Source: Streptomyces sp. Go-475
Lineage (GTDB): Bacteria; Actinomycetota; Actinomycetes; Streptomycetales; Streptomycetaceae
Length of the DNA: 64,000 nucleotides
Direction: 5' to 3'
Assembly: GCF_003330845.1 (NCBI RefSeq)
Contig: NZ_CP026121.1
Coordinates: 5,375,501-5,439,500, forward strand
Both the position numbers and the translations under genes were made by a program. Positions 3,457 through 64,000 of this stretch are shown here, in pieces. The notes beneath the pieces are model-generated. The model was not told where the DNA came from. It was given only the letters and a program-made list of their open reading frames with translations, and did no database searches. Numbering within the stretch: position 1 is the stretch's first letter; each line of letters starts with the position of its first letter.

Positions 3457-3469
3457 CAGACGAGCATAT

Positions 3470-4360: not shown

Positions 4361-4419
4361 TGGGTCCGGCGGTTCGGTGGTTCAGGGCGGCGCCCGGCCG
4401 GGAGCCGGGCGCCGGGGTG

Positions 4420-6424: not shown

Positions 6425-7249
6425 TTACAGGCGTCCCAGGACCTGGGCGAGCAGGGAGCCCATGCGCGTCGCCGAGTCGCGGCCCGCCTGGAGAACCTCT
6501 TCGTGGTTCAGGGGCTCGCCCGTCATGCCCGCCGCGAGGTTCGTGACGAGGGAGATGCCCAGAACCTCGGCGCCCGCCTCCCGCGCGGCGATCGCCTCCA
6601 GGACCGTCGACATGCCCACCAGGTCCGCGCCGATGACCCGGGCCATGCGGATCTCGGCCGGAGTCTCGTAGTGCGGGCCGGGGAACTGGGCGTAGACGCC
6701 CTCCTCCAGCGTGGGGTCGACCTCCTTGCACAGGGCCCGCAGGCGCGGGGAGTACAGGTCGGTGAGGTCGACGAAGTTGGCGCCGACGATGGGGGAGGTG
6801 GCGGTGAGGTTGATGTGGTCGCTGATCAGGACCGGCTGGCCGGGGCGCATGCCCTCGCGCAGGCCGCCGCAGCCGTTGGTGAGGACGACCGTCTTGCAGC
6901 CGGCCGAGACGGCCGTGCGGACGCCGTGGGCGACGGCGGCCACGCCGCGGCCCTCGTAGTAGTGCGTCCGGCCCAGGAAGACCAGGGCGCGCTTGTTGCC
7001 GATCCGGTACGAGCGGATCTTGCCTCCGTGGCCCTCCACCGCCGGCGGCGGGAAACCGGGCAGCTCGGTGACCAGGAGCTCGGCCTCGGGGGCACCCAGG
7101 GCGTCGACGGCCGGGGCCCAGCCGGAGCCCATCACGAGGGCGACGTCGTGGGTCTCGGCGCCCGTGAGTTCGCGCAGGCGGGCCGCGGCGGCGTCGGCGG
7201 CGGCGTGGGGGTCGCCCTGGATGTCGTCCGGAAGAAGAGATGCGTTCAC
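6425..7249 (-). CDS. purine nucleoside phosphorylase
   Basis: This 274-aa enzyme belongs to the trimeric PNP/MTAP family. It phosphorolyses purine (deoxy)nucleosides to free base plus (deoxy)ribose 1-phosphate. Motifs are [11 protein letters not shown] at the phosphate loop, [33 protein letters not shown] and [15 protein letters not shown]. The start is GTG 7249: a TACCCT -10 element (7257-7262) ends 7 bases upstream, suggesting a leaderless mRNA. The 12-bp palindrome shared with deoC sits in its -35 region, linking the two genes in one regulon. Confidence 0.93.
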
Positions 7250-49727: not shown

Positions 49728-50258
49728 GTGTTCAGCACATTATTCCGGCGCGGTGGGGGAAGGTTCCCGGGCCTGGGCGACGATCGGCGACGGGACGCGG
49801 AGCTGAGATCGCACAGCCGCCGGCTGATACGGGAACTCGCGCCTCCGCTGCCGCTGGGCGTCACCAAGCTGTGCGAGTTGCTGGCCGAGCAGCGCGGTAC
49901 GCCGATCAGACTGCTGGAGTGGGACCTGCCGGCCGACGGCCCCTTCGGGGTCCTGCTCTCCCGCCAGGACGAGGACGTCATCGTCTACCAGGCGAAGACC
50001 ACCAAGGCGCATCAGGAGCACATCATCCTGCACGAGGTCGGGCACATCGTCGCCTACGACCTGTCGGGGGAGCGGCCGGAGCAGCCGCAGTTGCGCAACT
50101 GCTACTCCGACCGGGACGAGAGGGACGCGGAGATCGTCGCGTCCACGCTCATGCACCAGGCGATGGCGGCGCAGCGGCAGGCGCGGCGCCACGGGCTCGA
50201 CGAGCCGTGGCGGCCCTCCGTCTACGGCAGTCTCGTCTTCGAGAACGGGCTCACGTGA
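49728..50258 (+). CDS. ImmA/IrrE-type zinc metallopeptidase with a TTA codon
   Basis: The 176-aa product has the metalloprotease motif HEVGH (residues 102-106) in the ImmA/IrrE (DUF955) fold: LSRQDEDVIVYQAKTT, then IILHEVGHIVAYDLSG, then a downstream acidic DERDAEIVASTLMHQAM. Relatives cleave repressors of the XRE type or activate stress responses. An XRE gene lies 1.1 kb away. Codon 5 is TTA (49740-49742), the rare bldA-dependent leucine codon. Translation may therefore be tied to development. GTG 49728 follows CAGGGG. Confidence 0.88.
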   Translation: MFSTLFRRGGGRFPGLGDDRRRDAELRSHSRRLIRELAPPLPLGVTKLCELLAEQRGTPIRLLEWDLPADGPFGVLLSRQDEDVIVYQAKTTKAHQEHIILHEVGHIVAYDLSGERPEQPQLRNCYSDRDERDAEIVASTLMHQAMAAQRQARRHGLDEPWRPSVYGSLVFENGLT

Positions 50259-50338
50259 ACTCCGGGCCGCCGCCCGGTGCTTCGGCCGGGCGACCGGCCG
50301 AAGGACAAGGCGGCGGCCCTCTGGGGACCAGAAGGTCC

Positions 50339-50474
50339 AGGGAGCCAGAGGCCTGAGGCGCCGGAGCTTCAGGGAGCCAGAGGCCTGAGGAGCCGGAGCT
50401 CCAGGGAGCCAGGGGCCTGAGGAGCCGGAGGTCCAGGGAGCCGGAGGTCCAGGGAGCCGGAGGTCTAGGGGACC
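50339..50474. repeat. tandem array of 32-bp units built from 16-bp halves
   Basis: Three 32-bp units lie at 50339-50370, 50371-50402 and 50403-50434. They are followed by two 16-bp half-units (50435-50450, 50451-50466) and a partial. Each half begins AGGGAGCC; the halves read roughly AGGGAGCCAGAGGCCTG and AGGCGCCGGAGCTTC with variation. The stop codon of the minus-strand quinone oxidoreductase gene (50465-50467) lies at the last unit boundary. Confidence 0.85.
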
Positions 50475-51376
50475 AACACCAGCTTGCCGCGGAAACCGCC
50501 GCGCTCCAGGCGCCGGTGGGCCTCGGCCGCCTCCTCGAAGGGGAGCACGGTGGTCTCCTGGCGCGGGCCGTCCCCCCGGGCCGCGGTCTCGGCCACGTCG
50601 GCCAGGTCGTCCCCGTCCAGTTCCACGCCGATGAGGGTGTACGCCACGTCGGGCCGCACGGCCGGGTCCGGGGCGCTGAACGGGGTGATGGTGAGGAAGG
50701 CGCCCCGCGGGCGCACGGCCTCGAACAGGCCGGGCGCGCCGCCGGCGTCGATGACGATGTCGTAGGCCCCGGCCTCCACCTGCGCGGGGTCGGTGAGCAC
50801 CGCGCCGTCGGCCGGGCACCCGGCCCGCCGCTCCTGCCATGCGGAGCGGTCGGCGGGGCGGACGAGCAGGTCGGTGCGGGCCGACGCCTCGTCGAGCAGG
50901 CGGGCGGCGACGTGCGCGCCGACGCCCCCCTGGGCGCCGATCAGCAGGATCCGCTTGCCTCGGCGGTCCGGGGTCCGGCGCAGCAACTGCACCGCGGTCA
51001 CACCCGCGAGCGGCAGGGCGGCGGCGTCCGTGAGGGCCATGCCCTGCGGCACCCGCGCCACGTACTTCGGGTCGAAGGACACGTACTCGGCCATGCTGCC
51101 CACGCCGGTGCCCAGTTGCGCGGTCATCGCCAGGACGCGGTCACCGGCGCGGAAGCCGGAGCCCGCCGGGGCGTGCGCGACGGTGCCCGCCAGGTCCCAG
51201 CCGAGCACGGCGGGCAGTGAGGTGGGAATCAGGCCCGAACGGGTCGCGAGATCCACCGGGTTGACGGCCGCGGCGGCTGTCCTGATCACCAGGTCTTCCG
51301 CGGGCTCCGGGTCGGGCACCTCCTGGACTTCCAGGACCTCAGGTCCGCCGGTCCGGGTGAGGCGGACGGCCTTCAC
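50465..51376 (-). CDS. zeta-crystallin-like quinone oxidoreductase
   Basis: The 303-aa zinc-free MDR oxidoreductase reads MKAVRLTRTGGPEVLEVQEVPDPEP, AVLGWDLAGTV, and the cofactor loop LLIGAQGGVGAHVAARLLDEA. It lacks catalytic and structural zinc cysteines, as expected of QOR/CAA43093-type enzymes that use NADPH to reduce quinones or enones. GTG 51376 overlaps the TGA of the upstream XRE gene (GTGA), so both are coupled. It may serve the divergent cyclitol genes or be an unrelated detoxification gene. Confidence 0.88.
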   Translation of the reverse strand: MKAVRLTRTGGPEVLEVQEVPDPEPAEDLVIRTAAAAVNPVDLATRSGLIPTSLPAVLGWDLAGTVAHAPAGSGFRAGDRVLAMTAQLGTGVGSMAEYVSFDPKYVARVPQGMALTDAAALPLAGVTAVQLLRRTPDRRGKRILLIGAQGGVGAHVAARLLDEASARTDLLVRPADRSAWQERRAGCPADGAVLTDPAQVEAGAYDIVIDAGGAPGLFEAVRPRGAFLTITPFSAPDPAVRPDVAYTLIGVELDGDDLADVAETAARGDGPRQETTVLPFEEAAEAHRRLERGGFRGKLVLVP

Positions 51377-51852
51377 GCGTCTCCCTCCTCAGGGGACTTC
51401 GCCTCAGGGGAGGACTTCGCGGACTTCTTCGGGTCGTCCAGCACGTCCATGATCGACAGCAGTTGCTCGCGCATGGCCGGGGTGAGCTGGCCGGCGCGCA
51501 TGGCGATGGAGCGCACCTGCCGGTCGGAGAGCGCTTCGGCCCACTCGTCCTTCTCCTCCTGGACGGGGGTGGGCGGGTCCTCCGAGATGAGCGCGCTCAC
51601 CGACACCGGCAGCGTCATCTCCCGGGACTGGAAATACCGCACGATCGCCGAGAGCACGCTGACCGTCGGGTTGGTCTGCGAGCCGTTGCGCAACGCCGTC
51701 AGATAGCTCCGGGAGATCGTGACGTCGTGGCTCGGGTCCTGCGAGATCGCCTGGGCGACTTCGGAGGTTGTCGGTTCACGCAGCCGGCCCACGGCATCAG
51801 CCGTGGCGGCATCCGCGAACCAGGCATTCAGGCGTTCTGCCAGCGTGGCCAT
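51373..51852 (-). CDS. XRE-family regulator divergent from the cyclitol operon
   Basis: The 159-aa product has an N-terminal helix-turn-helix (TSEVAQAISQDPSHDVTISRSYLTALRNGSQTNPTVSVLSAIVRYF) and a C-terminal helical part ending in an acidic Lys/Ser tail. ATG 51852 is chosen with GGAAGG 7 bases upstream; the frame could extend to 51978. Its divergent position makes it the probable regulator of the operon starting at 52087. The C-terminus has QVRSIAMRAGQLTPAMREQLLS, seen in Streptomyces XRE proteins that pair with ImmA peptidases. Confidence 0.8.
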   Translation of the reverse strand: MATLAERLNAWFADAATADAVGRLREPTTSEVAQAISQDPSHDVTISRSYLTALRNGSQTNPTVSVLSAIVRYFQSREMTLPVSVSALISEDPPTPVQEEKDEWAEALSDRQVRSIAMRAGQLTPAMREQLLSIMDVLDDPKKSAKSSPEAKSPEEGDA

Positions 51853-51984
51853 GCGGTCGACCTTCCAGGGGGGTTCCGGCGACTCAGGGTGGCGGCGGTG
51901 AGGCGCGGTGCGGCTCAGCCCGGCGGATGCGCGCTGCGTTTGTCCCCCGTGCGTCGACAGCGTCGTCTCCGTGCCCATCAGCTT

Positions 51985-52086
51985 AGCACGAATGTTACAT
52001 GCGGCGGTTCTGCTGCTACTATATTCGACACAACGCTGCTCAAGAGGTCACCCGTGCAGTGATGTGGCATCGATTTTGGAGGGGAC
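51985..52086. promoter_or_regulatory. divergent control region of the xre-qor pair and the cyclitol operon
   Basis: The sequence is notably AT-rich. It has ATGTTACAT (51992-52000), a 4+1+4 inverted repeat, and CTACTATATTCG about 15 bases further on, which contains a TANNNT-like -10. The SD GGAGGGG precedes the cyclase ATG 52087. The inverted repeat is a candidate operator for the XRE protein encoded next door. Confidence 0.5.
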
Positions 52087-53322
52087 ATGCATAGCGGCAC
52101 TCAGTTCACCCAGGGGCTCCGCCTGGCCATGGACAACGGCCCGGCCTGGACGGTCGAGGCCGTGCGCCAGGTGCGGTACCACGTCGTCAGCTCCGACCAC
52201 CTCTTCTCGCCGGACAACACCACGCTGCTGACGGGCTGCCCGGACGCCCCGCTGCGGGCCGGAGAGCGGCGGCTCGTCGTCATCGACGAGAACGTGGACG
52301 CGCTCTACGGCGCGCGGATCCGCGCGTTCTTCGACCACCACGACATCGCGGTCACGGTGCTCGCCCTGCGCGCCGACGAGACCGTGAAGCAGTTCGACGC
52401 CGTCTCCCGGGTCGTCGACGCCATGAACGACTTCGGGATCGACCGCCGCCGCGAGCCGGTCATCGCCATCGGCGGCGGGGTGCTCACCGACATCGTCGGA
52501 TTCGCGGCGAGCCTCTACCGGCGCGGAACCCCGTACATCCGCATCCCCACGACGCTGATCGGCCTCGTCGACGCGGGAGTCGGCGTCAAGACCGGCGTCA
52601 ACTACGACACCGGGAAGAACCGGCTGGGGACCTACGCGGCCGCCACGGCCACCTTCCTCGACCGCTCGTTCCTGCGCAGCCTGGACCTGCGGCACATCAG
52701 CAACGGCCTGGCCGAGATCCTGAAGATGGCGCTGATCCGCTCCGAGGAACTGTTCGAACTGCTGGAGAGGTCCGGCCCCGAGGTGCGCGCGGACCGCTTC
52801 CAGGGCTCCACCGGCGAACTCGCCCGGGCCGCCGACGCGATCGTCGCCGAGTCCATCCACCTCATGCTCGAAGAGCTGCAGCCCAACCTGTGGGAGTCCG
52901 CGCTGGAGCGCTGCGTGGACTACGGGCACACCTTCAGCCCCACCATCGAGATGCACGCCCTCCCGGAGCTGCTGCACGGCGAGGCCGTCGTGATCGACAT
53001 GGCGCTCACCACGGCGCTGGGTCTCCTGCGCGGCGACGTCGGCCAGGAGCAGGCCGACCGGATCTTCTCCGTCATCCGCGCGCTCGGACTGCCGCTGTGG
53101 AACGACGTGCTGGACGACCCGAGCCTGCTGGAGGCGGCGCTGCGCGACACCGTGCGCCACCGCGACGGCCGGCAGCGGCTGCCGTTGCCGGTCGGCATCG
53201 GACGCCACCGCTTCGTCAACGACGTCGAACCCGCCGAGCTGCGCGCGGCGGCACAGCTGCTGCGCCGCCGTGCCGAGGACATGACGCAGGACGCCCCGGC
53301 CGAGGCCCTGGTGAGCGCATGA
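52087..53322 (+). CDS. sugar phosphate cyclase, probable 2-epi-5-epi-valiolone synthase (EEVS)
   Basis: This 411-aa member of the dehydroquinate synthase superfamily shows the NAD motif AIGGGVLTDIVGFAA, IRIPTTLIGLVDAGVGVKTGVN, and KNRLGTY. The zinc ligands are Glu210 (LAEILKMA), His281 (VDYGHTFSP) and His297 (LLHGEAVVIDM). The KNRLGTY and LEELQPNLWE blocks are those of C7-sugar cyclases, not of aroB enzymes. EEVS cyclises sedoheptulose 7-phosphate, the entry step to acarbose, validamycin and salbostatin. EVS or demethyl-4-deoxygadusol synthase cannot be fully excluded. ATG 52087 follows GGAGGGG. The next start overlaps its stop (ATGA). Confidence 0.9.
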   Translation: MHSGTQFTQGLRLAMDNGPAWTVEAVRQVRYHVVSSDHLFSPDNTTLLTGCPDAPLRAGERRLVVIDENVDALYGARIRAFFDHHDIAVTVLALRADETVKQFDAVSRVVDAMNDFGIDRRREPVIAIGGGVLTDIVGFAASLYRRGTPYIRIPTTLIGLVDAGVGVKTGVNYDTGKNRLGTYAAATATFLDRSFLRSLDLRHISNGLAEILKMALIRSEELFELLERSGPEVRADRFQGSTGELARAADAIVAESIHLMLEELQPNLWESALERCVDYGHTFSPTIEMHALPELLHGEAVVIDMALTTALGLLRGDVGQEQADRIFSVIRALGLPLWNDVLDDPSLLEAALRDTVRHRDGRQRLPLPVGIGRHRFVNDVEPAELRAAAQLLRRRAEDMTQDAPAEALVSA

Positions 53323-54089
53323 GTGCCGCCCCGGAGCGCATGCCCGAGCGTGCGGTGGTGATCGGCGGCTCGACCGGGATCGGGCGGGGTGTCGCCGACG
53401 CCTGGGCCGCCGCCGGCATCGAGACCCACGTCTTCAGCCGCAGCCGGCCCGCCGGCCAGGGCAGTGACCGGCTGGTCTGGCACCGGCTCGACTTCCGCGA
53501 CCCGGAGCAGGCCAAGGAGGCGCTGCGGGCCGGCATCCCGGAGCGGACGGACCTGGCCTGCTACTCCGCCGTCTACTTCACCTCCCGGCGTGAGCCGTTC
53601 ACGCAGGTGAGCGAGGCCGACTGGCTGGACCAGTTCGCGGTCAACGTGCACGGTCTGGCGTGGACGCTGCGTGCGGCGCTGCCCAGGCTGCGCGCGGCCG
53701 CGCCCGGGATGTTCCTGCACATCTCGTCCGAGGTCGTCTACAACGCCGGGCCGAACCGCTCGGGCTACGCCGCCACCAAGGCCGCCGCCGACTCCCTGAT
53801 CCGCTCGGTGTCGCAGGAGACCGACCCGGCCGAGACGACGTTCGTGCAGGCCCTGCCCGCCGGCATGGTCGACAGCCCCGGCATCCGGGCCCGCCGGTCC
53901 GCGGACTTCGACTACAGCGGCTACATGTCCCCGGCCGCCTTCGCGCCGCTGGCCGTCGAACTCGCCCGCACCCGCGGGGTGCCGCACGCCGGGGAAGCGC
54001 TCGTCGTGCACGAGGACACCACCTGGACGTCCGTCGCGGACGACCTCCCCGTGTCCCAGTCGCGTCCGCTCGCCGGCGCCCGGCCGTAG
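53319..54089 (+). CDS. short-chain dehydrogenase/reductase of the cyclitol operon
   Basis: The 256-aa SDR has the cofactor motif GGSTGIGRG and the active site SSEVVYNAGPNRSGYAATK, where Ser, Tyr and Lys (YxxxK) are present. It may oxidise or reduce a ring ketone of the cyclitol, as AcbN and ValN-type steps do in other C7 pathways. The coupled ATGA overlap with the cyclase gene makes it part of the pathway. The stop TAG falls in an 18-bp repeat array that continues downstream. Confidence 0.88.
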   Translation: MSAAPERMPERAVVIGGSTGIGRGVADAWAAAGIETHVFSRSRPAGQGSDRLVWHRLDFRDPEQAKEALRAGIPERTDLACYSAVYFTSRREPFTQVSEADWLDQFAVNVHGLAWTLRAALPRLRAAAPGMFLHISSEVVYNAGPNRSGYAATKAAADSLIRSVSQETDPAETTFVQALPAGMVDSPGIRARRSADFDYSGYMSPAAFAPLAVELARTRGVPHAGEALVVHEDTTWTSVADDLPVSQSRPLAGARP

Positions 54090-54179
54090 CCGGTCACCCG
54101 GCCGTAGCCGGTCACCCGGCCGTGGCCGATCACCCGGCCGTGGCCGATCACCCGGCCGTGGCCGGTCATCCGTACGTCA
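54080..54179. repeat. 18-bp tandem repeat, five copies, starting at a stop codon
   Basis: Units lie at 54090-54107, 54108-54125, 54126-54143, 54144-54161 and a diverged 54162-54179. A partial unit is also encoded in the end of the SDR gene. The consensus is CCGGTCACCCGGCCGTRG; later copies have GATC for GGTC. The TAG stop matches the unit end, so the array could extend the protein in frame if that stop were lost. Confidence 0.85.
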
Positions 54180-54215
54180 CCGGTCCGTCCGCGGACCCAT
54201 TCCCAGGAGCATCCC

Positions 54216-54899
54216 TTGCCTCAACTGCACGCGGCTGCACTGCTGTTCGACATGGACGGCACCCTCGTGGACTCCACCGCGCTGGTCGAGTCCACCTGGG
54301 CCGGCTTCTGCGAGCGGCACCAGCTCGACCTCGCGGAGGTGCTGGCCTTCGCCCACGGGCGCCCCACCCGGGAGACCGTGTGCCGTTTCCTCCCCGACCC
54401 CGACCAGGCGGCGGCGGAGACCCGGCGCCTCGTCGCGCACGAGGAGTCGGAGACCACCGGCATCACGGAGGTCCCCGGCGCCCGGGCGCTGCTGGCCGAA
54501 CTGCCGCCGGACGCCTGGGCCGTGGTCACCTCCGCGGGCCGCCGGCTGGCGGAGGTGCGGATGGCGGCGGCGGGACTCCCGCTGCCCGCGATCCTGGTGA
54601 GCGCGGACGACGTGACGCGCGGCAAGCCGGAACCCGAGGGCTATCTGCGGGCCGCCGCCGCGCTCGGCTGCCCGCCGGAGGACGCCGTCGTCGTCGAGGA
54701 CTCCAGCGCCGGAGTGCGGGCCGGACTGGCCGGCTGCGGACGCACCGTGGTCATCGGCAGCCTCGACGCCTACGACGACGTGGCCCCGCGCTGGGCCGAC
54801 TTCCGCGGGTTCCGGGTCGCCGACCGGCAGCCGGGCCGGGCCGGCGTGACCCTCGACGTGCCCGAGCCGGTCGCCGCGGGACCGGTGGTCCGGCGATGA
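54216..54899 (+). CDS. HAD-superfamily phosphatase
   Basis: The 227-aa HAD hydrolase has the nucleophile motif LLFDMDGTLVDS (Asp12, Asp14), VVTSAGRR, KPEPEGYL and VVEDSSAGVRAGLAG, all four HAD signatures. It resembles beta-phosphoglucomutase-like phosphatases and probably removes the phosphate from a cyclitol phosphate, as ValO does in validamycin biosynthesis. TTG 54216 is inferred from AGGAG six bases upstream. Its end overlaps the kinase start (ATGA). This is the only gene of the operon not coupled to the one before it. Confidence 0.85.
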   Translation: MPQLHAAALLFDMDGTLVDSTALVESTWAGFCERHQLDLAEVLAFAHGRPTRETVCRFLPDPDQAAAETRRLVAHEESETTGITEVPGARALLAELPPDAWAVVTSAGRRLAEVRMAAAGLPLPAILVSADDVTRGKPEPEGYLRAAAALGCPPEDAVVVEDSSAGVRAGLAGCGRTVVIGSLDAYDDVAPRWADFRGFRVADRQPGRAGVTLDVPEPVAAGPVVRR

Positions 54900-55936
54900 G
54901 CCCCGTCGCCGCCTCCCAGGACCCGATCGAGGACCATCGGACCGCCGCCGGGGCGCCGGCGACGACCTTCGCGGCGGACATCGGCGGCACCTGGGTGCGG
55001 ATGAGCACCGGCGGACCGGGCGCGCCGGTGGAACGGGTTCCCTCGCCCAGCCGTCTGCGCCACCCGGACCGCTCCACCGCCCGGCTGCGGGCCGACATGG
55101 TCGAGCTGCTCAGCGACCGGGTCCCCGCGGGCGCCCGCGCCGCCCTCTCCTTCGGCGCGGCGATCGACCATCTCACCGGCACCGTCTACGGATCGGCTCC
55201 GCTGTGGGGGGCCGCGGACACCCCGTACGACCTCGCCGCCGACCTGCGGCGGAGCCGGCCCGACGTCACCTGGCACCTCGTCAACGACGTCACCGCGGCA
55301 CTGCTGGACTTCGCCGCCGTGCACGCCCGGCCCGGCACCCGCCGGGTCGCCTATCTGACCGTCAGCAGCGGCATCGCCCTGCGGATCGCGGATCTGGAGC
55401 GGACCAGGATCCCGGTCGACACCTGGGGGCTGCAGGGCGAGGTCGGCCACCTGCCGGTCCCGCTCACCGACCCCGGCGCGGAGGTACTGGCGGGACTCCC
55501 CTGTGAGTGCGGCGCGACGGACCACCTGGCCTCGCTCGCCTCCGGGCCGGGCCTCGTCCGCGCGGCCCGGCGGCTCGGGATACCCCGGGCTCCGCAGGTC
55601 GCCGACTGGCTCCCGGGCGCTCTCGACGCCAACGACCCTGGCGCGAGGCGGCTGCTGGAGCTGGGCGCCGCCCCGGTCGCCCACCTGCTGCGCACCCTGT
55701 GGTGCCTCGACCCGCACCTCGACCTGATCGGGGTCGGCGGGGGCGTGGCCGAAGGGCTGGCCGGCCACTACGCGGCCGAGATCCGCCGCCGCCTCGCCAC
55801 CGCCACCTCCTACGCCGACCGGGGGCGCGACGACGCCTGGCTCGGCGACCGGCTCGTGTTCTGCGGCCCGGGGCAGGTGGACCCGCTGCGCGGGGTCCTG
55901 CGCATCGGCGACTGGCTCCCGGGGGTCACCCCGTGA
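54896..55936 (+). CDS. ROK-family C7-cyclitol kinase candidate
   Basis: The 346-aa ROK sugar-kinase-like protein has the ATP-binding ADIGGTWVRM (27-36), Asp131 in the VNDVTAALL motif, and EVGH (182-185), the ROK signature glutamate and histidine. The zinc motif normally reads CxCGxxGC. Here it is CECGATDH (203-210): the third cysteine is His, which could still bind zinc. AcbM and ValC, glucokinase-like kinases of acarbose and validamycin, phosphorylate the C7-cyclitol. A 7-O-phosphorylation role here is inferred by analogy. Confidence 0.85.
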   Translation: MSPVAASQDPIEDHRTAAGAPATTFAADIGGTWVRMSTGGPGAPVERVPSPSRLRHPDRSTARLRADMVELLSDRVPAGARAALSFGAAIDHLTGTVYGSAPLWGAADTPYDLAADLRRSRPDVTWHLVNDVTAALLDFAAVHARPGTRRVAYLTVSSGIALRIADLERTRIPVDTWGLQGEVGHLPVPLTDPGAEVLAGLPCECGATDHLASLASGPGLVRAARRLGIPRAPQVADWLPGALDANDPGARRLLELGAAPVAHLLRTLWCLDPHLDLIGVGGGVAEGLAGHYAAEIRRRLATATSYADRGRDDAWLGDRLVFCGPGQVDPLRGVLRIGDWLPGVTP

Positions 55937-57021
55937 GCGCCGCGACCCACCGGGCCCTGGTCCGCCGGCCCGCCGACAGCTCCGGCCGCACTCTGGTCGA
56001 GGTGGCCGAGGTGCCCACCCCCCGGCTCGACCCCGGCGACGTCCTGCTCGCGCCGGCGGTCGTGGGCATCTGCGGCACCGACTGGCAGATCCTGCGCGGC
56101 CTGCGCGACGACCCCAGCCCCGTCCTCGGCCACGAAGGCGTCGCCCACGTGGTGGAACCCGGGGACTCCGGGCTGCCGGCGGGCACGCCGGTCACCGTGA
56201 ACCCCACGCATCCCGAGGACCCGTCCTTCCTGCTCGGCCACAACCTTCCCGGGCTCTGGGCGGAGCGCACCCGCATCCCCGCCGCGGCCGTACGCGCCGG
56301 ACTGGTCGTCCCGGTGCCCGCCGACGCCGCACGGCCACGGGTGGCCGCGCTCGCGGAACCGCTCGCCGCCGCCCGGTACGGCGCGCGGATCGTGCGCCAC
56401 ACGCTGCGCCCGGCGGCGCTGGTCGTGTGGGGCGACGGCATCGTGGGGCGCCTCGCGCGCGAGTTGTGGCGCACGGAGGAGCCCGGGCCGCGCACCCTTC
56501 TCGTGGGGCACGGCGACGACGCCGTCGACCCGCACGACGCCGACCTCCCCCGGCTGCTGGCCGGTCTGCCCTCACCGGTCGCCGCCGTCATCTGCACACC
56601 CCGCACCGGAACACGCGAGGCGCTGACCACCCTGGACCGGTACGTGCCGGGCACGCTGCTGGTCGACGTGCACGCCGGGCTGCCCTCGGGCCCGGTCCCG
56701 CTGACCGGGGGCGACATCGACGTCGCCGCGCTCCGTACGGCGAACTGCGGCGGAACCCCCTGGCCCCCGCGGGTCGAGGAGTTCGCCCGTCCGCACGGCA
56801 GGCTCCTGCTCTGCGGCCACCGCGGCGTCTCCGGCGACCAGCTGCGGGACGCCGTCGAACTGCTGCGGACCACCCCGCGGCTCGGGGAGCAGGTGCTCAC
56901 CCACGAGGTCGGACTGGAGGAGGCCGCCGACCTCGTCAACACCGTGCTGACCACGTCCAGGCGCCGCGCCGACGGCCGCCGCGTGCTCAAGACCGCGATC
57001 CGTGTCGGGAGCCGGCCATGA
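55933..57021 (+). CDS. zinc-type MDR dehydrogenase without the structural-zinc loop
   Basis: The 362-aa MDR protein keeps the catalytic Cys47 in GICGTDW and GHEG (His67), but the usual four-Cys structural loop is absent; in its place is a Pro/Asp/His-rich segment (NPTHPEDPS). The Rossmann part is short and irregular (WGDGIVGRLARELW). It resembles glucose/threonine dehydrogenase-like enzymes. It may act on a cyclitol alcohol, or be a divergent partner to the intact MDR gene at 57845. GTG 55933 overlaps the kinase stop. Confidence 0.78.
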   Translation: MSAATHRALVRRPADSSGRTLVEVAEVPTPRLDPGDVLLAPAVVGICGTDWQILRGLRDDPSPVLGHEGVAHVVEPGDSGLPAGTPVTVNPTHPEDPSFLLGHNLPGLWAERTRIPAAAVRAGLVVPVPADAARPRVAALAEPLAAARYGARIVRHTLRPAALVVWGDGIVGRLARELWRTEEPGPRTLLVGHGDDAVDPHDADLPRLLAGLPSPVAAVICTPRTGTREALTTLDRYVPGTLLVDVHAGLPSGPVPLTGGDIDVAALRTANCGGTPWPPRVEEFARPHGRLLLCGHRGVSGDQLRDAVELLRTTPRLGEQVLTHEVGLEEAADLVNTVLTTSRRRADGRRVLKTAIRVGSRP

Positions 57022-57848
57022 CCGCACCGGCCACCACAGCCCTGCCCCCCGCCGGCCCGGCTCCGACCGCGCTCGCCGTCGCCGCGCCGCAGTGGCGGAT
57101 CGACACCGACCGCCGGACGGCCGCCCGCGCCGCCCTCGCGGCAGGGGCCGATCAGCTGCACCTCGACTACGGCGGTGCCCACCGCGGCCCGCCGCTGAGC
57201 GACCGCGCCGCCCTGCGAGCGGCCGAGGCGGTCACCGGGGAGCTCCCGGTACCCGTGCTCGCCGTCAACCACCTCAACGACATCGGCCTGGCACACGAGC
57301 AGGGCACCGCCGACCCGGCGGCCGTCGAGCTGCTGCTGCGGGCCCTGGACTGCGCCCTGCACCTGGGCGCCGCCGTGCTCCACGTGCCCGGCTTCCGGCG
57401 GAGCCTGCCGAACACAGAGGGACTGCGTGCCGGAACGGCCGAGGCGCTGCGCGGCCTGTGCGCGCGGCTCGCCGGGACACACCTGCTGGTCGCCTACGAG
57501 TCGCCGCTCGGCCCGCACGACTCCCTCGCACTGGCCCGGGCGGTGGACCACCCCGCCCTGCGGCTGGTCCTGGACACCGGCAACCTGGCCGACGCGGGAC
57601 TGCGGCCGCTCGCCTTCGCCGAACAGGTCGGGGCCGCCGGGCTCCTGCTGCCGGACCTGCACGTCAAGGACGGCTCCCGTACGACGGCCCCCTCCGCCGC
57701 CGACCTCCCGGCCCTGCTCCGGCGCTCCCGCGCCCGCTCGGTGCTCGTGGAGAACGACTACCGGAAGACCCCGGGCCGCCTGCGCGAGGACATCGCGCTC
57801 TGCCGCCGCGCGGCCGAAGACCCCCGCCACCCCGAGGACGCACCATGA
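57018..57848 (+). CDS. xylose-isomerase-like TIM-barrel protein (epimerase/isomerase candidate)
   Basis: The 276-aa protein has the AP-endonuclease-2/xylose-isomerase TIM-barrel layout: LHLDYGG, VLHVPGF, metal Glu in AYESPLGPH, LVLDTGN (Asp), LHVKDG (His and Asp) and VENDY (Glu). Such barrels isomerise or epimerise sugars and inositols. Acarbose and validamycin pathways need an epimerase at C-2 of the C7-ketose, and this is the best candidate in the operon. ATG 57018 overlaps the preceding stop and its end overlaps the next start. Confidence 0.8.
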   Translation: MTAPATTALPPAGPAPTALAVAAPQWRIDTDRRTAARAALAAGADQLHLDYGGAHRGPPLSDRAALRAAEAVTGELPVPVLAVNHLNDIGLAHEQGTADPAAVELLLRALDCALHLGAAVLHVPGFRRSLPNTEGLRAGTAEALRGLCARLAGTHLLVAYESPLGPHDSLALARAVDHPALRLVLDTGNLADAGLRPLAFAEQVGAAGLLLPDLHVKDGSRTTAPSAADLPALLRRSRARSVLVENDYRKTPGRLREDIALCRRAAEDPRHPEDAP

Positions 57849-58882
57849 GAACCATCCAGCTCACCGCCCCCCGCACGCTGACCGTCACCGAGACCGCACC
57901 GCCCGAACCCGGCCCCGGCGAGGTCCTCGTCCGGGTGAGCCTGCTCGGCCTGTGCGGCACCGACCTCGGCTTCTTCGACGGCAGCAGCAACTACCTGCGC
58001 GACGGCCTGAAGAGCTACCCCTTCGTCCCGGGACACGAGTGGATCGGCACCGTCGTCGGGACCGGCCCCGGCACCGACCCGGACCTGCTGGGCCGGCGCG
58101 TGTCGGGCCACAACTTCCGCGTCTGCGGCCGGTGCGCGCACTGCCACGCCGGGCGCATCCGCTCCTGCCCGGACCGCAGCGAGATCGGCGTGCTCGGGCC
58201 CCGCCCGGGCGCCGGCGCGCAGCTGATCACCGCGCCGCAGGACACCCTCACCCGGATCCCCGACGCCCTGTCCGACGCGGCCGGTGCCCTGCTGGAGCCG
58301 ACCGCCGCCGCGGTGCACGCCGTGGACCGGCTCGGCGTGACGGCGTCGGACCGCGTCGCGGTGCTCGGCGCGGGCACGCTCGGCGTCGCGGCGGCCCAGA
58401 CGGCCCGGGCGATCGGCGCGGACACCGTCGTCCTCGATCCGAACCCGGCCGCCCGCGTGCTGGCCGCCGAGCTGGGCCTGCGCGCCCAGGCCGGCCCGGC
58501 CGCGGCGGACGAGGAGGCCTACGACGCCGTGATCGAGGCGTCGGGCAGCGAGGCGGCGGTCCGCTCCGCCGTCCGCCTGGTCGCCGCGGGCGGGCGCATC
58601 GCCCAACTGGGCACCCCGCACCACGCCGTGGACGGCTTCGACGCGGCCGGTCTGGTGATCCGGGACGTGACGCTGCACGGCGTGCTGTCCGGGATCGGCT
58701 ACTGGGACCGGCTCGTCGGACTCGTCGAGTCGGGCGCGGTGAACCTGGACGCCCTCGTCGACCGGGTCTTCCCGCTGGACGAACTGGACGCCGCCTTCGC
58801 GCGCCTCGCCGACGGCAGCCGGAACCGTCCCAAGGTCCTCGTCCGGATCGACCCGGCGCTCGCGGAACCCGGCCCGGCATGA
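57845..58882 (+). CDS. zinc-dependent MDR dehydrogenase with intact zinc sites
   Basis: The 345-aa dehydrogenase has catalytic zinc residues Cys37 (GLCGTD) and His64/Glu65 (GHEW). The structural zinc set Cys94, Cys97, Cys100 and Cys108 is in CGRCAHCHAGRIRSC. The NAD motif is VLGAGTLGVAAA. It is like the sorbitol/threonine dehydrogenase group. It is the second dehydrogenase in the operon and may oxidise a ring hydroxyl. ATG 57845 and ATG 58879 of the following MFS gene both overlap neighbouring stops. Confidence 0.85.
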   Translation: MRTIQLTAPRTLTVTETAPPEPGPGEVLVRVSLLGLCGTDLGFFDGSSNYLRDGLKSYPFVPGHEWIGTVVGTGPGTDPDLLGRRVSGHNFRVCGRCAHCHAGRIRSCPDRSEIGVLGPRPGAGAQLITAPQDTLTRIPDALSDAAGALLEPTAAAVHAVDRLGVTASDRVAVLGAGTLGVAAAQTARAIGADTVVLDPNPAARVLAAELGLRAQAGPAAADEEAYDAVIEASGSEAAVRSAVRLVAAGGRIAQLGTPHHAVDGFDAAGLVIRDVTLHGVLSGIGYWDRLVGLVESGAVNLDALVDRVFPLDELDAAFARLADGSRNRPKVLVRIDPALAEPGPA

Positions 58883-60144
58883 GCGGCACCGCAGTGGCCC
58901 GGGAACGGATCGACGCGCCGACCGCCGCGCGGCTGGCCGTCCTGGCGAGCGCCACCTTCGTCTACGTCACCTTCGAGGTCTTCCCGGTCGGGCTCATCCA
59001 GGACATCGCCCGCGACCTCGATGTCTCGGCCGGCCGGGTGGGCCTGCTGATCAGCGGCTACGCCGTGGTCGCCGCCGTCGTCACGGTGCCGACGGTCGCG
59101 CTGGCCTCCCGCGTCTCCCGGGGCACCGCCCTGGTGGTCTCCCTCCTCGTCCTCGTCGTCGCCGAACTGCTCGCGGCGGCCGCGACCAGCTTCTCGATGA
59201 TGGTGGTCAGCCGGGTCGCCGCGGCCCTGACGCACGGCGTGCTGTGGTCGCTGATCGCCCCGGCCGCGGCCACGCTGGTGCCGCGCGAGCGGGTGGGCAC
59301 CGCCACCGCGGCGGTGTTCGGCGGCTCCACGCTCGCCGCGATCCTCGGCAGCCCGGGGACCACGTTCATCGGCGAGCTGATCGGCTGGCGCGCCACGGCC
59401 CTGGTCCTCGCGGCGGCCACCGTCGCCGTGACGCTCGGGCTGGTCTGGGCTCTCGGGCTGCGACGCGACCCCCGGCCGCCGGTGGCCGGGGAACCGCCGG
59501 GGCCGGCCGTCCCGGAGCCCGGCCGGCCGGCGGTGCCCTGGCGGCGCGTGCTGACCCTGTGCGCCGTCGCGGTCGTGCTCATCACCGCGCACTTCCTGAG
59601 CTACACCTACTTCGCCGTCCTCGTCGCCGACCTCACCGGCACCTCCGCCGCGGTGGTCGTACTGCTCGCGGTCTTCGGGGCCGCGGGGGCGGTGGGCACC
59701 TTCCTGGTGGGCCGGCACAACGACACGGCCCCGCAGCGGACGGCGGCCGTGACCATCGCGGTGTTCGCGGTGGGCATCGGACTGCTGGCGCTCGCCTCGG
59801 CCCTGGACGGCACCACCACGCGCGGCGCGGCGGCCGCGGTCGCCGTCGCCCTGTGGGGCGGCGCGTTCGCCGCGGCCGGGCCCGTCTTCCAGACGGGCGT
59901 GATGCGCCTGGCCGGCGAGGACGCCGACCGGGCCTCCTCGGTCTACGTCACCGGCTTCCAGATCGGGATCGCCGGCGGTTCGGCCCTGGGCGCCGCCTTG
60001 CTGGCCCACTCGTCGCTGTGGCTGCCGGTCACCTCCACCGCGCTCGTGGCGCTGGTGCTGGCGGTGGTCCTGGTGCGACGGCCCGTGCCCGCGGCGCAGG
60101 AACCCCGGGATCGGCACCCGGAACTGTGCTCACAGGAGCACTGA
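58879..60144 (+). CDS. MFS exporter of the cyclitol operon
   Basis: The 421-aa protein has twelve spans. It starts with FVYVTFEVFPVGLIQDIARDLDVSAGRVGLLISGYAVVAAVVTVPTVALASRVSRG. The loop between spans 2 and 3 has the MFS motif-A-like SRVSRG, and a long Pro-rich central loop divides the halves. It is of the DHA1 (arabinose-efflux-like) class, most often exporters. As last gene of the ATGA-linked chain it is likely the product's efflux pump. Codon use matches its neighbours. Confidence 0.88.
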   Translation: MSGTAVARERIDAPTAARLAVLASATFVYVTFEVFPVGLIQDIARDLDVSAGRVGLLISGYAVVAAVVTVPTVALASRVSRGTALVVSLLVLVVAELLAAAATSFSMMVVSRVAAALTHGVLWSLIAPAAATLVPRERVGTATAAVFGGSTLAAILGSPGTTFIGELIGWRATALVLAAATVAVTLGLVWALGLRRDPRPPVAGEPPGPAVPEPGRPAVPWRRVLTLCAVAVVLITAHFLSYTYFAVLVADLTGTSAAVVVLLAVFGAAGAVGTFLVGRHNDTAPQRTAAVTIAVFAVGIGLLALASALDGTTTRGAAAAVAVALWGGAFAAAGPVFQTGVMRLAGEDADRASSVYVTGFQIGIAGGSALGAALLAHSSLWLPVTSTALVALVLAVVLVRRPVPAAQEPRDRHPELCSQEH

Positions 60145-60270
60145 AGCGTCTTAAGAAGGCACATTGCTAATATAGTGGCAGCCGTGCTTTTATAGAGCGC
60201 ATGCTTGGCGCCAGGGAGGCGGCCCGACGGCGCCCCTGGCCTCGCCACTCCACCCGAGAAAGGCAGTGAG
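60145..60270. promoter_or_regulatory. AT-rich gap with a probable internal promoter
   Basis: The run 60148-60195 is the AT-richest stretch for kilobases around. It contains CTAATATAGTGG and CTTTTATAGAG, each with a TANNNT -10-like element. The following gene at 60271 breaks the string of overlapping starts, so a separate promoter is likely here. Confidence 0.5.
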
Positions 60271-61047
60271 ATGCCCCGCACCACCGTCGACGGCACGACC
60301 GTCCACTACCGCACCGAGGGGCAGGGCCCCGGTCTGCTCCTGGTGCACGGCACCGGCGCCACCGGCGAGACCAACTACGGTCACCTGGTCAAGGAGTTCG
60401 CCGACCGGCACACCGTGATCTTTCCCGACTACGCGGGCAGCGGTGACACCGTCGACGACGGCAGCCCGCTGACGCTGGAGCAGCTCGCCGACCAGGTCCT
60501 CGGGGCCGCCGACGAGGCGACCGACGAGCCCGTCGACGTCGTGGGCTTCTCGCTCGGCGCGCTCGTCGCCGTCATGGCCGCGGCCCGGCGCCCCGAGCGG
60601 GTCCGCCGGCTCGTGCTGGTGGCCGGCTGGGCCCGCAACGACGACCTGCGCAAGCGTCTCGGGTTCACCCTCTGGCGCCGGCTGGCCGACCTCGACCCGG
60701 AGCTGTACTCGCACTACATCAGCCTGCTGCTCTTCACCCCGGGCTTCCTGGCGGACCTCGACGCGGAGACGTTCGACGCGGCCGTGGGCGGTGCCGAGGT
60801 CAACGAGGGCACGCTGCGGCAGATCGAGCTCGGCCTGGACGCCGACATCCGGGAGCTGCTGCCCGCGATCGGCGTCCCCACCCTGGTCGTCGGCTGCCGC
60901 CACGACCAGCTCGTCCCGGTCGACCATTCCCGGGAACTGCACGAGGCGATCCCCCGCAGCACCTACCTGGAGATCGAGAGCGGCCACCTGGTGCCGGCCG
61001 AGGCCCCGGACGAACTCGTCGACGCCATCCGGAACTTCCTCACCTGA
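60271..61047 (+). CDS. alpha/beta hydrolase
   Basis: The 258-aa hydrolase has HGTGATG (oxyanion hole), the nucleophile Ser94 in GFSLGA, a catalytic Asp in CRHDQLVP and His in ESGHLVP. Length and order fit the serine-hydrolase family that includes esterases and peptidases. It is cotranscribed with or near the cyclitol genes and may release or acylate the product. ATG 60271 follows AGAAAGGCAGTG. No signal peptide is present. Confidence 0.85.
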   Translation: MPRTTVDGTTVHYRTEGQGPGLLLVHGTGATGETNYGHLVKEFADRHTVIFPDYAGSGDTVDDGSPLTLEQLADQVLGAADEATDEPVDVVGFSLGALVAVMAAARRPERVRRLVLVAGWARNDDLRKRLGFTLWRRLADLDPELYSHYISLLLFTPGFLADLDAETFDAAVGGAEVNEGTLRQIELGLDADIRELLPAIGVPTLVVGCRHDQLVPVDHSRELHEAIPRSTYLEIESGHLVPAEAPDELVDAIRNFLT

Positions 61048-61122
61048 CACCGGCGGCGCGGACCCCGGGGCGGGCGGCCCGGCAGCGGCACCCACGGCCC
61101 GCCACTCCCGAAAGCCCCACCC

Positions 61123-61404
61123 CGGCCCGCCCGCGTCCCACTGCGGCGAACCCGCCCGGCCGCGACCACCCCGGCCCGTCCGCATCCCACTGCGGCGAAC
61201 CCACTCGGCCGCGACCACCCCGGCCCGTCCGCATCCCGCCGCGGCGGACCCACTCGTGCCGCGACCACCCCGGCCCTCACCCGCACCCGGGCCGCGACCG
61301 CCCCGGCCCGCCCGCACCCCGCTGCGGCGGACCCCCTCAGGCCGTGAACGCCCCGGCCTCGCCCGCATCCGACCGCGGCGAACCCACCCGGGCCGCGACC
61401 ACCC
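61123..61404. repeat. 49-51-bp tandem repeat between hydrolase and acyltransferase genes
   Basis: Units start at 61123, 61172, 61221, 61271 (shortened to 33 bp), 61304 and 61354. Each begins CGGCCCG and contains CCCACTGCGGCGAACCC followed by GCGACCACC. The unit ends near 61405. The sequence has no conserved reading frame. The rest of the gap, 61405-61476, holds the acyltransferase start region. Confidence 0.85.
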
Positions 61405-61476
61405 CGGTACGGCCCGGGCCGCGCCACCGTGCTCCGCCCGCCGCGTCCATCCGAGCTGAAGGAACAACGCCCGCCC

Positions 61477-62814
61477 ATGGCCACGCCCCAGATCACCCCG
61501 CCCGAACTCATACCGCCGACGGACACGGCCCCCGGCCCCGCAACACCCGCCGACCCGCTCCCGGCCGGCGCCGACGCGCCGAGCACCGGCGTCCCCACCG
61601 GCGTCGACGCACCGAGCGCCGACGCACCGAGCGCCGACGCACCGAGCACCGACGCACCGAGCACCGACGCACCGAGCGCCGACGCGCCGAGGGTCGGCGG
61701 TCCGGCCGTCCGGCTGCCCTCCCTGACGGGTATGCGGTTCCCGGCGGCGCTCCTCGTCTTCCTGTTCCACGTCTCCCTGCCGGCCCACTGGCTCATGGCC
61801 GGCGACGCCAACACCACCCTCTTCGCCCGCCTCACCGAGCAGGCCGGTGGCGTCGGCGTCACCTTCTTCTTCGTCCTCAGCGGCTTCGTCCTCGCCTGGT
61901 CCGCCCGCGAGGGCGACCCGCGGACGTCGTTCTGGCGCCGCCGGTACGTCAAGATCGTGCCCAACTACGTCGTCGCCTGGGCGCTCGCGATGCTGCTGAT
62001 CGCGTCCGGCACCGCCTGGTGGCGGTCGGCGGCCACCTTCTTCATGCTCCAGTCCTGGGTCCCGGACTACACGACCAACTTCGCCGTGAACTCCCCGGGC
62101 TGGTCGCTGTCCACCGAGGTCTTCTTCTACCTGTGCTTCCCGCTGCTGCACGCCGGGGTCCGGCGGATCGCCCCGCGGCGGCTGAAGTTCTGGATCGCGG
62201 GTGTCATCGCCGGGGTGTTCGCCACCCCCTGGCTGGCCACCACCTTCATTCCGGCGGGCGACGTCTACATGTCGAACGAGCCCGGCGTCTCCGGACTGCA
62301 CCTCTGGTTCGCCTACGTCTTCCCGCCGTCCCGGCTGCTCGACTTCCTGCTCGGCATCCTGGTCGCCCGGGCCGTCATGCTGGGCCGCTGGCGCGACATC
62401 GGCCTCGTCTGGTCCGGCCTGCTGATGGTGGCCGGCTACGTGGTCGCCGAACTCCCCGGCGTGCCCTACCTCCTCGCCCAGCGCGCGGTCTGCCTCGTGC
62501 CGTGCGTGCTGCTGATCGCGGCCGGAGCGCTGGCCGACGCGTCGGGCCGGCCGACCCCGTTCGCGAACCGCGCGATGACCTGGCTCGGCGAAGTCTCCTT
62601 CGCCTTCTACCTGCTGCACTTCATCGTGCTCTCCGAGGCGCGGGAACTGCTCGGCGCCCGGCTGGAGTCCGGCTGGGCCGTGGCCGCGTTCGTCGTCGCC
62701 GAATGCGCCGTCTCGGTCCTGCTGTCCTGGGCGATGTACGCCTGGGTGGAAAAGCCGCTGGTCCGCCGCTGGTCCCGCTCGCGGGCCAAGGCCCCCGCCG
62801 CCGTGGCCGCCTGA
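61477..62814 (+). CDS. membrane acyltransferase 3 family protein
   Basis: The 445-aa protein starts with a Pro/Thr/Ala-rich cytoplasmic stretch and an in-frame repeat (DAPS, residues about 45-70). The acyltransferase 3 (OafA/NodX-like) fold follows, with about ten spans: GMRFPAALLVFLFHVSLPAH carrying the family's catalytic His, VTFFFVLSGFVLAWSARE, and SFAFYLLHFIVLSEA. It would O-acylate a sugar or cyclitol on the membrane. ATG 61477 is used; AAGGA lies upstream but far from it, so the start could be GTG 61429. Confidence 0.82.
   Translation: MATPQITPPELIPPTDTAPGPATPADPLPAGADAPSTGVPTGVDAPSADAPSADAPSTDAPSTDAPSADAPRVGGPAVRLPSLTGMRFPAALLVFLFHVSLPAHWLMAGDANTTLFARLTEQAGGVGVTFFFVLSGFVLAWSAREGDPRTSFWRRRYVKIVPNYVVAWALAMLLIASGTAWWRSAATFFMLQSWVPDYTTNFAVNSPGWSLSTEVFFYLCFPLLHAGVRRIAPRRLKFWIAGVIAGVFATPWLATTFIPAGDVYMSNEPGVSGLHLWFAYVFPPSRLLDFLLGILVARAVMLGRWRDIGLVWSGLLMVAGYVVAELPGVPYLLAQRAVCLVPCVLLIAAGALADASGRPTPFANRAMTWLGEVSFAFYLLHFIVLSEARELLGARLESGWAVAAFVVAECAVSVLLSWAMYAWVEKPLVRRWSRSRAKAPAAVAA
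61606..61692 (+). repeat. 15-bp in-frame tandem repeat in the acyltransferase gene
   Basis: About six copies of GACGCACCGAGCRCC encode repeated DAPSA/DAPST residues in the N-terminal cytoplasmic region. The length is a multiple of three, so copy-number change would not break the frame. Confidence 0.8.
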
Positions 62815-62917
62815 CCCGGCGACCACCCGATGCCGTGACCCCGCCCCCCCGCGCCCGCCCCCGCGCCCGCCGCCCGGGCGCGGTGACCGACACCCCGCAC
62901 GATTCGAAGGTGCCCCC

Positions 62918-64000
62918 ATGCCGTTCCGACTCGCCGCGCTGATCCTCGCGATCTTCTGCGTCGGCACCGCGGAGCTCTCGCCCAGCGGGATGCTGGACGA
63001 CCTCTCCACCGACCTCAGCGTGAGCCTGGCCTCGGCCGGCCTGCTGGTGACCGCGTACGCGTTGACGATGGTGGTCGGTGGCCCGCTGGTCACCGCGCTC
63101 ACCACCCGCGTCCCCCGCAAGCTGTTGCTGGTGGGCCTGCTGACCGCCTTCGTCCTGGGCAACGTCGTCTGCGCCCTGGCGTCGGGTTTCGGCATGCTGA
63201 TGGCGGGCCGGGTGCTGACCGCGGTCGTGCACGGCACCTTCATGGCGGTGTGCGTCGTGACCGCCGGTGACATGGCCGGCGAGGGCAAGGGGGGCGCCGC
63301 CGTCGCGGCCACTCAGCTCGGGATCAACCTCGCCACCGTGCTCGGTGTCCCCATGGGCTCCTTCCTCGCCCAGCACTACGACTGGCGGGCCCCGTTCGCC
63401 CTCGTCGCGGCGCTGGCCGCGGTGGCCATCGTCCTGATCCTCGCCTGGGTCCCCGGCACGCCCGCCCCGACGGTCACGGCGGCCCATGAGGCGCGGGTGT
63501 TCCGCCGCCCGGCCGTCTGGGGCACCGTGGGCGCCACGGTCCTGTGCTCCGGCGGGATGTTCACCCTGATCACCTACATGGTGCCGCTGCTGACCGGCGT
63601 CGGCCACCTGCCGCGGCACTGGGTCCCGGCCGTGCTCCTCGCCTACGGGGTGGGCTCCATCGTGGGCAATCTGCTCGGCGGGCGGTACGCGGACCGCGGA
63701 GTCGACCGGGCGGTGGGGCGGATCTCCTGGATCCTGGTGGCCGCCTGCCTGCTCTGCTGGCTCCTCGCGCCCCACGCGGCGGGCGGTGCCCTCGCCCTCG
63801 TGGTGTTCTCGCTCGCCACCTTCGCCCTGATCCCCGGACTCCAGACCAAGGTGCTCGCCGAGGCGGCCGACGCGCCGACGCTGTCGCTCACCGCCAACAT
63901 GTCCGCCTTCGGGCTGGGTGCCGCACTCGGGTCGTGGATCGGTGGTCTGCTCACCGACTCCGGCCTCGGCACCCGTGGCGTGCCCCTCGGGGCGGCCGCG
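62918..64000 (+). CDS. MFS transporter, truncated by the window edge
   Basis: The visible 361 codons start with MPFRLAALILAIFCVGTAEL. They contain at least ten spans, with the MFS motif region TTRVPRKLLLVG and a second half beginning FRRPAVWGTVGATVLCSGGMF. It resembles arabinose-efflux/DHA1 permeases and is unlike the transporter at 58879. AAGGTG lies 5 bases before ATG 62918. The stop is outside the window. Confidence 0.85.
   Translation, partial: MPFRLAALILAIFCVGTAELSPSGMLDDLSTDLSVSLASAGLLVTAYALTMVVGGPLVTALTTRVPRKLLLVGLLTAFVLGNVVCALASGFGMLMAGRVLTAVVHGTFMAVCVVTAGDMAGEGKGGAAVAATQLGINLATVLGVPMGSFLAQHYDWRAPFALVAALAAVAIVLILAWVPGTPAPTVTAAHEARVFRRPAVWGTVGATVLCSGGMFTLITYMVPLLTGVGHLPRHWVPAVLLAYGVGSIVGNLLGGRYADRGVDRAVGRISWILVAACLLCWLLAPHAAGGALALVVFSLATFALIPGLQTKVLAEAADAPTLSLTANMSAFGLGAALGSWIGGLLTDSGLGTRGVPLGAAA

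Follow-up and report, generated by a model that had tools for sequence, protein, structure and literature searches.

A conserved Streptomyces gene cluster predicted to make, acylate and export a C7 carbasugar

Which small molecule is made by the compact set of sugar-converting genes that follows a sedoheptulose 7-phosphate cyclase gene in Streptomyces sp. Go-475? The genes lie in a stretch of 64,000 nucleotides (NZ_CP026121.1, forward strand, 5,375,501 to 5,439,500; hereafter the window, whose numbering is used throughout) that sits in an 8.57-Mb genome of one contig. An earlier note, made from the letters of the window, had read them as an orphan C7-cyclitol cluster. Here we report that the stretch is a real, self-contained gene cluster that spans about 49728–65335, that is, past the end of the window (Table 1). 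It very probably converts a common sugar phosphate into an acarbose-like sugar look-alike (a C7-cyclitol, or carbasugar), and its sequence suggests that it decorates this carbasugar with an acid group and exports it.

The evidence that these genes belong together comes from other genomes. Relatives were taken from the best 80 of 105 loci (numbered L001 onwards), with homology from tblastn and a home-made open reading frame (ORF) caller that missed some genes. All eight core genes, from the cyclase to the first MFS exporter, stand in the same order in 15 of the 80 loci, with an acyltransferase inserted in L019; a sixteenth, L017, lies on a contig that ends after the HAD gene. These 16 are called own-type below, and the remaining 64 other EEVS loci. 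Hosts of the eight-gene order are Streptomyces, Kitasatospora, Streptacidiphilus, Kribbella, Tsukamurella and a Propionibacteriales metagenome-assembled genome (MAG). Species with the cluster include S. olindensis, S. tuirus, S. niger, S. cellulosae and S. toxytricini, the first of which (L004) is the nearest named record and has an identical cyclase. Across the genus, a cyclase was found at E 1e-60 or better in 53 of 392 genomes and at 80% identity or more in 4 of the 392, Go-475 included; a plasmid search gave 19 records, all below 60% identity. A chance gathering of genes was rejected on this conserved order and on a shared upstream site described below.

Every gene that the earlier note had named (cyclase, SDR, HAD, ROK, two MDR, TIM barrel and MFS) is present, at 52087–60144. 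Its remark that nearly all of them overlap by 4 bp holds for six of the seven junctions of the cyclase-to-MFS operon, as ATGA or GTGA, and fails at SDR/HAD, where a 126-bp gap carries an 18-bp tandem repeat. Both boundaries have to be moved. The proposed start, 51373, marks where a divergent regulator gene (real start 51852) ends, outside the biosynthetic operon, with an MDR reductase overlapping the regulator by 4 bp and an HExxH protein further along that side; the proposed end, 64000, cuts a second unit of alpha/beta hydrolase, acyltransferase A and MFS 2, which continues to acyltransferase B at 64121–65335, just outside the window.

The first predicted enzyme of the core is an EEVS-type cyclase. 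Its best solved relative in a PDB sequence search is ValA (4p53, 387 bits), followed by 5tpr at 258 bits and the rest at 142 or less. We take 5tpr to be the desmethyl-4-deoxygadusol synthase (DDGS) of Anabaena, although its structure file is labelled 3-dehydroquinate synthase. Fourteen active-site positions differentiate these cyclases, and two have been shown to split EEVS from DDGS (PMC4426668, in excerpt). At the two positions, D and H are found in 111 of 112 aligned rows and A and T in the 5tpr row, a test that covers 2 of the 14 published positions and skips L001, whose match contains a stop, as well as the window's own copies, L002 and L084. In ValA these residues are presumably D281 and H360. 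A tree of 84 rows (L084–L113 excluded; quick method, with support from the SH-like approximate likelihood ratio test (SH-aLRT) only) places the cyclase in the EEVS grouping, apart from AroB and DDGS; its deep rooting is uncertain, given the great length of the AroB and DDGS branches. The 13 nearest own-type cyclases make up one clade (SH-aLRT 100) inside a 27-row clade (SH-aLRT 96) that also holds the cyclases of Tsukamurella and Aeromicrobium/Propionibacteriales, together with ten from Rhodococcus, Nocardia and Streptomyces that belong to another cluster type, and ValA and the acarbose-like cyclases are placed in the other large branch. One further EEVS cluster type, seen in Rhodococcus, Nocardia and others (L018, L020, L022–L029 and L032), has cyclase, KASIII-like, MFS, MDR, SDR and glyoxalase-fold proteins, a luciferase-like protein in nine loci and mostly then HAD, ROK and AcbL-like genes.

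Five core proteins (cyclase, SDR, ROK kinase, MDR1 and TIM-barrel protein) match five genes of a locus from Actinoplanes sandaracinus (L052) at 39–59% identity, and the same five are matched in L033, L041, L072, L081 and L083. L052 represents here the C7-cyclitol module of acarbose (acbC, M, O, L, N and acbJ); we gave it this label and its gene letters by eye, from gene order and protein starts and on our assumption of how the acb cluster is laid out. According to excerpts of PMC7081202, such a five-gene set makes valienol 7-phosphate, and excerpts of that source and of PMC9200736 present both the AcbC-M-O-L-N steps and the removal of phosphate by AcbJ as biochemically established. In the TIM-barrel protein, E161, D186, H215 and E245 are invariant among 26 rows; its predicted model (predicted local distance difference test score 90.3) has an epimerase fold and is nearest to UlaE, a sugar-phosphate 3-epimerase. 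MDR1 conserves residues of the catalytic-zinc type (45 rows), with no four-cysteine loop detected by eye. The PDB sequence search gave no match at E 0.01 for the TIM-barrel protein or the ROK kinase, and weak partial matches only for MDR1. HAD homologues of 57–59% identity occur in L033 and L041; L052 has no match for HAD, MFS or acyltransferase, and for MDR2 only a weak cross-match (30% over 174 residues). An acarbose-type five-gene module plus an MFS gene is also found in Proteobacteria (Agrobacterium vitis, L081 10001–16200; a Salinicola MAG, L083), with cyclases 46–49% identical.

What the cluster holds beyond the acarbose set is a HAD protein, MDR2, two MFS proteins, two acyltransferases and a hydrolase. 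MDR2 conserves the residues of both zinc sites (38 rows). A homologue of acyltransferase A is found in all 16 own-type loci, where its place varies (downstream, divergently upstream or inside). Of the 64 other EEVS loci, 18 have one, so acylation may take place in other EEVS clusters too. Eleven PF01757 acyltransferases exceed the cut-off in the whole Go-475 genome, two of them in the cluster. The hydrolase and the MDR reductase (50465..51376) each have homologues in 10 of 16 own-type loci; as a guess, this reductase, lying beside the regulator, might guard against an enone product. In L040, MDR2, hydrolase and acyltransferase A have homologues (57, 81 and 77% identical, respectively) that are grouped at 2781–6533, beside an EEVS cluster of a different, cupin/glyoxalase type, which ties the three to one another and to cyclitol clusters.

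The two units also share a candidate control element. An operator-like site with the core TGCTANTATA lies in front of the cyclase operon and again in front of the acyltransferase/exporter unit, and is otherwise rare; since its second copy precedes them, the hydrolase, acyltransferase A and MFS 2 (60271–64114) seem to be cluster members. Of the cyclase copy, TGCTACTATATTCGAC, the left half fits a palindrome and the right half does not, and the hydrolase copy is a perfect fit to that palindrome, TGCYANTATANTRGCA, and the sole site in the 64-kb window at two or fewer mismatches. A 16-bp pattern derived from the sequence ahead of the cyclase and hydrolase genes matches three places in 8.57 Mb at one mismatch or fewer, two of them in the cluster (reversed control, one), a count that is partly circular because the pattern was drawn from those two sites. 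Among own-type loci, the 10-bp core TGCTACTATA lies at −73 to −77 before the cyclase in 11 of 16. Allowing one mismatch, it gives 22 strand hits (21 places) in the 329,761 bases of these loci and 2 matches in the 1,237,094 bases of the other EEVS loci (64), counts that include related genomes and are not independent observations. All nine core places away from the cyclase precede a hydrolase, MFS 2 or acyltransferase gene, and the whole palindrome, at two or fewer mismatches, recurs as the second-unit site in 8 of 14 loci.

The regulator gene is found in 14 of the 16 own-type loci, and in these 14 the site precedes the cyclase, with a degenerate form only in L014 and L019. The protein resembles EspR chains (phmmer, best E 5.3e-7); its start was judged from 14 homologues to be 51852, the ORF start at 51978 being too long. 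The protein encoded at 49728..50258, which we take from its motif to be ImmA/IrrE-like, belongs to a family that carries HExxH in all 14 members and lies near the cluster in 13 loci plus our own; Pfam and NCBIfam gave no match for it or for the regulator. We infer that the EspR-like regulator binds the operator-like site. Nine loci (L008–L014, L017 and L019) have, next to the HExxH protein and the regulator, a membrane protein of the MAB_1171c family (DUF6545) that the window's own cluster lacks; in L008, where no HExxH gene was called, it lies at 8065–9279.

These data bear on an unlikely alternative, in which the cluster makes only free valienol- or valienone-type cyclitols, like the shunt products of acarbose, and the acyltransferases have other targets, for example surface sugars. 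Dephosphorylation in Actinoplanes does yield free valienol, 1-epi-valienol and valienone (PMC7081202, in excerpt), and four carbasugars have been isolated from S. lincolnensis, for which a C7-cyclitol cluster is predicted (PMC10717218, in excerpt). However, no own-type locus is without an acyltransferase homologue, and the unit containing the acyltransferase is preceded by the same site as the cyclase operon. These two observations lend support to the free or simply acylated C7-cyclitol that the earlier note had envisaged, which stays a predicted product.

Could the carbasugar instead be aminated and activated, as in the acarbose, validamycin and salbostatin class? The earlier note had seen no aminotransferase or nucleotidyltransferase in the window, and this extends beyond it: no full-length DegT aminotransferase or NTP_transferase match lies within 100 kb, the nearest being about 125 kb and about 113 kb away, respectively. 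Two weak partial DegT matches are closer, one in the window that is a Cys/Met-metabolism enzyme and one 19.5 kb downstream at 32.9 bits. Among the cluster genes scanned there is no glycosyltransferase or pseudoglycosyltransferase, and glycosyltransferase-like genes recognized by eye begin 3.6 kb past the cluster (L114). The valienol-7-phosphate module is shared with C7N-aminocyclitol clusters, and the genome does hold DegT aminotransferases and NTP transferases elsewhere; a remnant or variant cluster of that class drawing on distant genes is nevertheless improbable, given the empty 100 kb and given that no such family recurs beside the 15 complete own-type loci (about 10 kb on each side, compared as gene strings with unshared genes unannotated). 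Because of this absence, the simplest reading is that the predicted product is a nitrogen-free, non-activated carbasugar, oxidized by MDR2 and acylated. The earlier interpretation is supported as largely right, and neither of the two outcomes that the earlier note had named as refuting it was seen: the cyclase does not group with AroB, and the genes do not match one known cluster in order, L052 sharing five of the eight in a different order.

On balance, we consider this probably a pathway-specific cluster for a decorated C7 carbasugar, with the following route. The cyclase would convert sedoheptulose 7-phosphate into 2-epi-5-epi-valiolone, the ROK kinase would phosphorylate O-7, the TIM-barrel epimerase would invert C-2, MDR1 would dehydrate the product to valienone 7-phosphate and the SDR would reduce this to valienol 7-phosphate. 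After removal of the phosphate by the HAD protein, the zinc enzyme MDR2 may oxidize another ring hydroxyl to give a gabosine-type keto-carbasugar, to which one or both membrane acyltransferases would transfer an acyl group, with export by the MFS proteins. Control would lie with the EspR-like regulator, perhaps together with the HExxH protein, acting at the operator-like site before both units. The best reading of the product is an acylated, further oxidized, valienol/valienone-type (gabosine-like) carbasugar. The route is built on the genes present and their homology, on their conserved order, on the place of the cyclase in the tree, on conserved catalytic residues and on the shared site; the substrates, the oxidation by MDR2, the acyl group and the binding of the regulator are all predicted from these.

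Another acylated ring would be COTC, a crotonyl ester, or its relative gabosine C. COTC comes from Streptomyces and is an acylated cyclohexenone (PMC2635666, in excerpt), and the gene content is compatible with a keto-carbasugar ester. We nevertheless think it quite improbable, and COTC was rejected as first choice because of the epimerase: (4R,5R,6R) COTC needs an un-epimerized C-2 and the cluster has an AcbO-like 2-epimerase, and no gene for supplying a crotonyl group is evident among the cluster genes scanned. The stereochemistry, which we worked by hand on what we presume to be the descriptors of valienamine, speaks for the gluco series of valienone. Least likely by far is a dehydroquinate or desmethyl-4-deoxygadusol synthase, suggested by PF01761 membership and matches to AroB models: the AroB equivalog models score far under their cut-offs, the genome's own AroB is encoded separately, next to two genes resembling aroK and aroC, and these points, the tree position and the ValA-like D/H in place of the A/T of DDGS led us to reject both.

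Several observations weigh against the acylated, oxidized carbasugar that we favour. No strain carries a known product; the kinase, MDR1 and TIM-barrel protein are only 39–42% identical to their L052 counterparts, and the HAD phosphatase, with no match there, does not come out as an AcbJ orthologue. MDR2 could act elsewhere or recycle an intermediate, and an AcbN-like reductase followed by a further dehydrogenase would be odd if the product were simply valienone. The targets of the acyltransferases are not readable from sequence, and such membrane acyltransferases also modify cell-surface sugars. Six own-type loci (L008–L013) are without the hydrolase and MDR reductase. The own-type layout is not monophyletic, because the 27-row clade includes cyclases of another cluster type; the tree requires two changes, with Rhodococcus-type cyclases intermixed. 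As for the site, its core was drawn from cyclase upstream regions, which leaves the non-cyclase sites as the only independent test, and the two Tsukamurella loci that lack the regulator showed no site before their cyclase.

Table 1 Features of the cluster in window numbering
Feature	Position	Strand	Basis or remark
ImmA/IrrE-like putative metallopeptidase	49728..50258	+	HEVGH motif; possible regulatory partner
MDR-family reductase, quinone/enone reductase-like	50465..51376	-	PF08240 + PF13602; role predicted
EspR-like helix-turn-helix regulator	51373..51852	-	phmmer to EspR chains; divergent from cyclase
Operator-like site TGCTACTATATTCGAC	52014..52029	+	73 bp before cyclase start
EEVS-type sedoheptulose 7-phosphate cyclase (predicted)	52087..53322	+	ValA 4p53 387 bits, fingerprint residues, tree
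SDR, AcbN-like cyclitol reductase	53319..54089	+	adh_short; 59% to L052
18-bp tandem repeat, SDR end and SDR/HAD gap	54079..54172	+	5.2 copies
HAD phosphatase	54216..54899	+	HAD_2; sugar phosphatase PRK11587 below cut-off
ROK-family kinase, AcbM-like cyclitol 7-kinase	54896..55936	+	PF00480; 40% to L052
MDR1, AcbL-like cyclitol dehydratase	55933..57021	+	42% to L052
TIM-barrel sugar-phosphate epimerase, AcbO-like	57018..57848	+	PF01261; 39% to L052
MDR2, zinc-dependent alcohol dehydrogenase, sorbitol/threonine dehydrogenase-like	57845..58882	+	Conserved zinc-site residues
MFS exporter 1	58879..60144	+	PF07690; best NCBIfam 'sugar transporter' below cut-off
Second operator-like site, perfect palindrome TGCYANTATANTRGCA	60165..60180	+	Precedes second unit
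Alpha/beta hydrolase	60271..61047	+	PF00561
Membrane acyltransferase A (Acyl_transf_3)	61477..62814	+	PF01757, 102 bits; alternative start 61429
MFS exporter 2	62918..64000, continuing to window-equivalent 64114	+	
Acyltransferase B	Window-equivalent 64121-65335, beyond window	+	PF01757

The 18-bp array at 54079–54172 is shorter in the close relative L004, so its copy number varies between strains. Further minisatellite-like arrays lie in other gaps of the cluster, at 61117–61407 (unit of about 49 bp) and 50336–50470 (about 32 bp). Next to the cluster, at 46182–49385, is a large gene, by eye an NB-ARC/TPR regulator, found at the same place only in L004 and L015 among the fetched loci.

We consider it possible, while leaning slightly against it, that this is the first cluster devoted to nitrogen-free keto-carbasugars in acylated form (gabosine-like esters). 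Its pathway would branch from valienol through a ring dehydrogenase of its own, in an EEVS lineage of which we know no characterized member, and would be switched by an EspR-like regulator and an ImmA/IrrE-like partner through a cluster-specific palindromic site. The literature searched, whose coverage left most subscription papers outside, yielded neither a gene cluster for gabosines or COTC nor a paper on this cluster type, and the literature examined ties gabosines to none of the strains sequenced here. We believe S. cellulosae to be a gabosine-producing species and found no link to its strain NRRL B-2687 (L007). Being compact and present in sequenced strains, the cluster is accessible to a direct knock-out test. 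It is a possible source of new carbasugars; its dehydrogenase and acyltransferases may act on carbasugars, and the operator-like site offers a handle on its control.

Among known systems, the acarbose module of L052 has homologues of the cyclase, kinase, epimerase, dehydratase and reductase in a different order. Its PfkB-, glycosyltransferase-, MalQ- and RmlA-like genes have no counterpart in the cluster, which adds MDR2, two MFS proteins, two acyltransferases, the hydrolase and the EspR-like regulator. The cyclase shares both tested fingerprint residues with ValA, its nearest solved structure, but belongs to a different large branch of the tree. Unlike C7N-aminocyclitol clusters, this one was not found to hold a sugar aminotransferase, cyclitol nucleotidyltransferase or (pseudo)glycosyltransferase. 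The nearest published cases that we found, each known from excerpts of its source, are the valienol sub-cluster motif of iPRESTO (PMC9946207) and the predicted cyclitol cluster of S. lincolnensis (PMC10717218), which has HAD and AcbL-like genes (SLCG_5038, SLCG_5041) as here; the spacing of its locus tags suggests an L033-like order instead. Gabosines were described in 1974 (PMC7961443, in excerpt). Gabosines I and G and COTC are, like the proposed product, nitrogen-free C7 keto-carbasugars, some of them acylated. We take gabosine I to be valienone and gabosine G its acetate.

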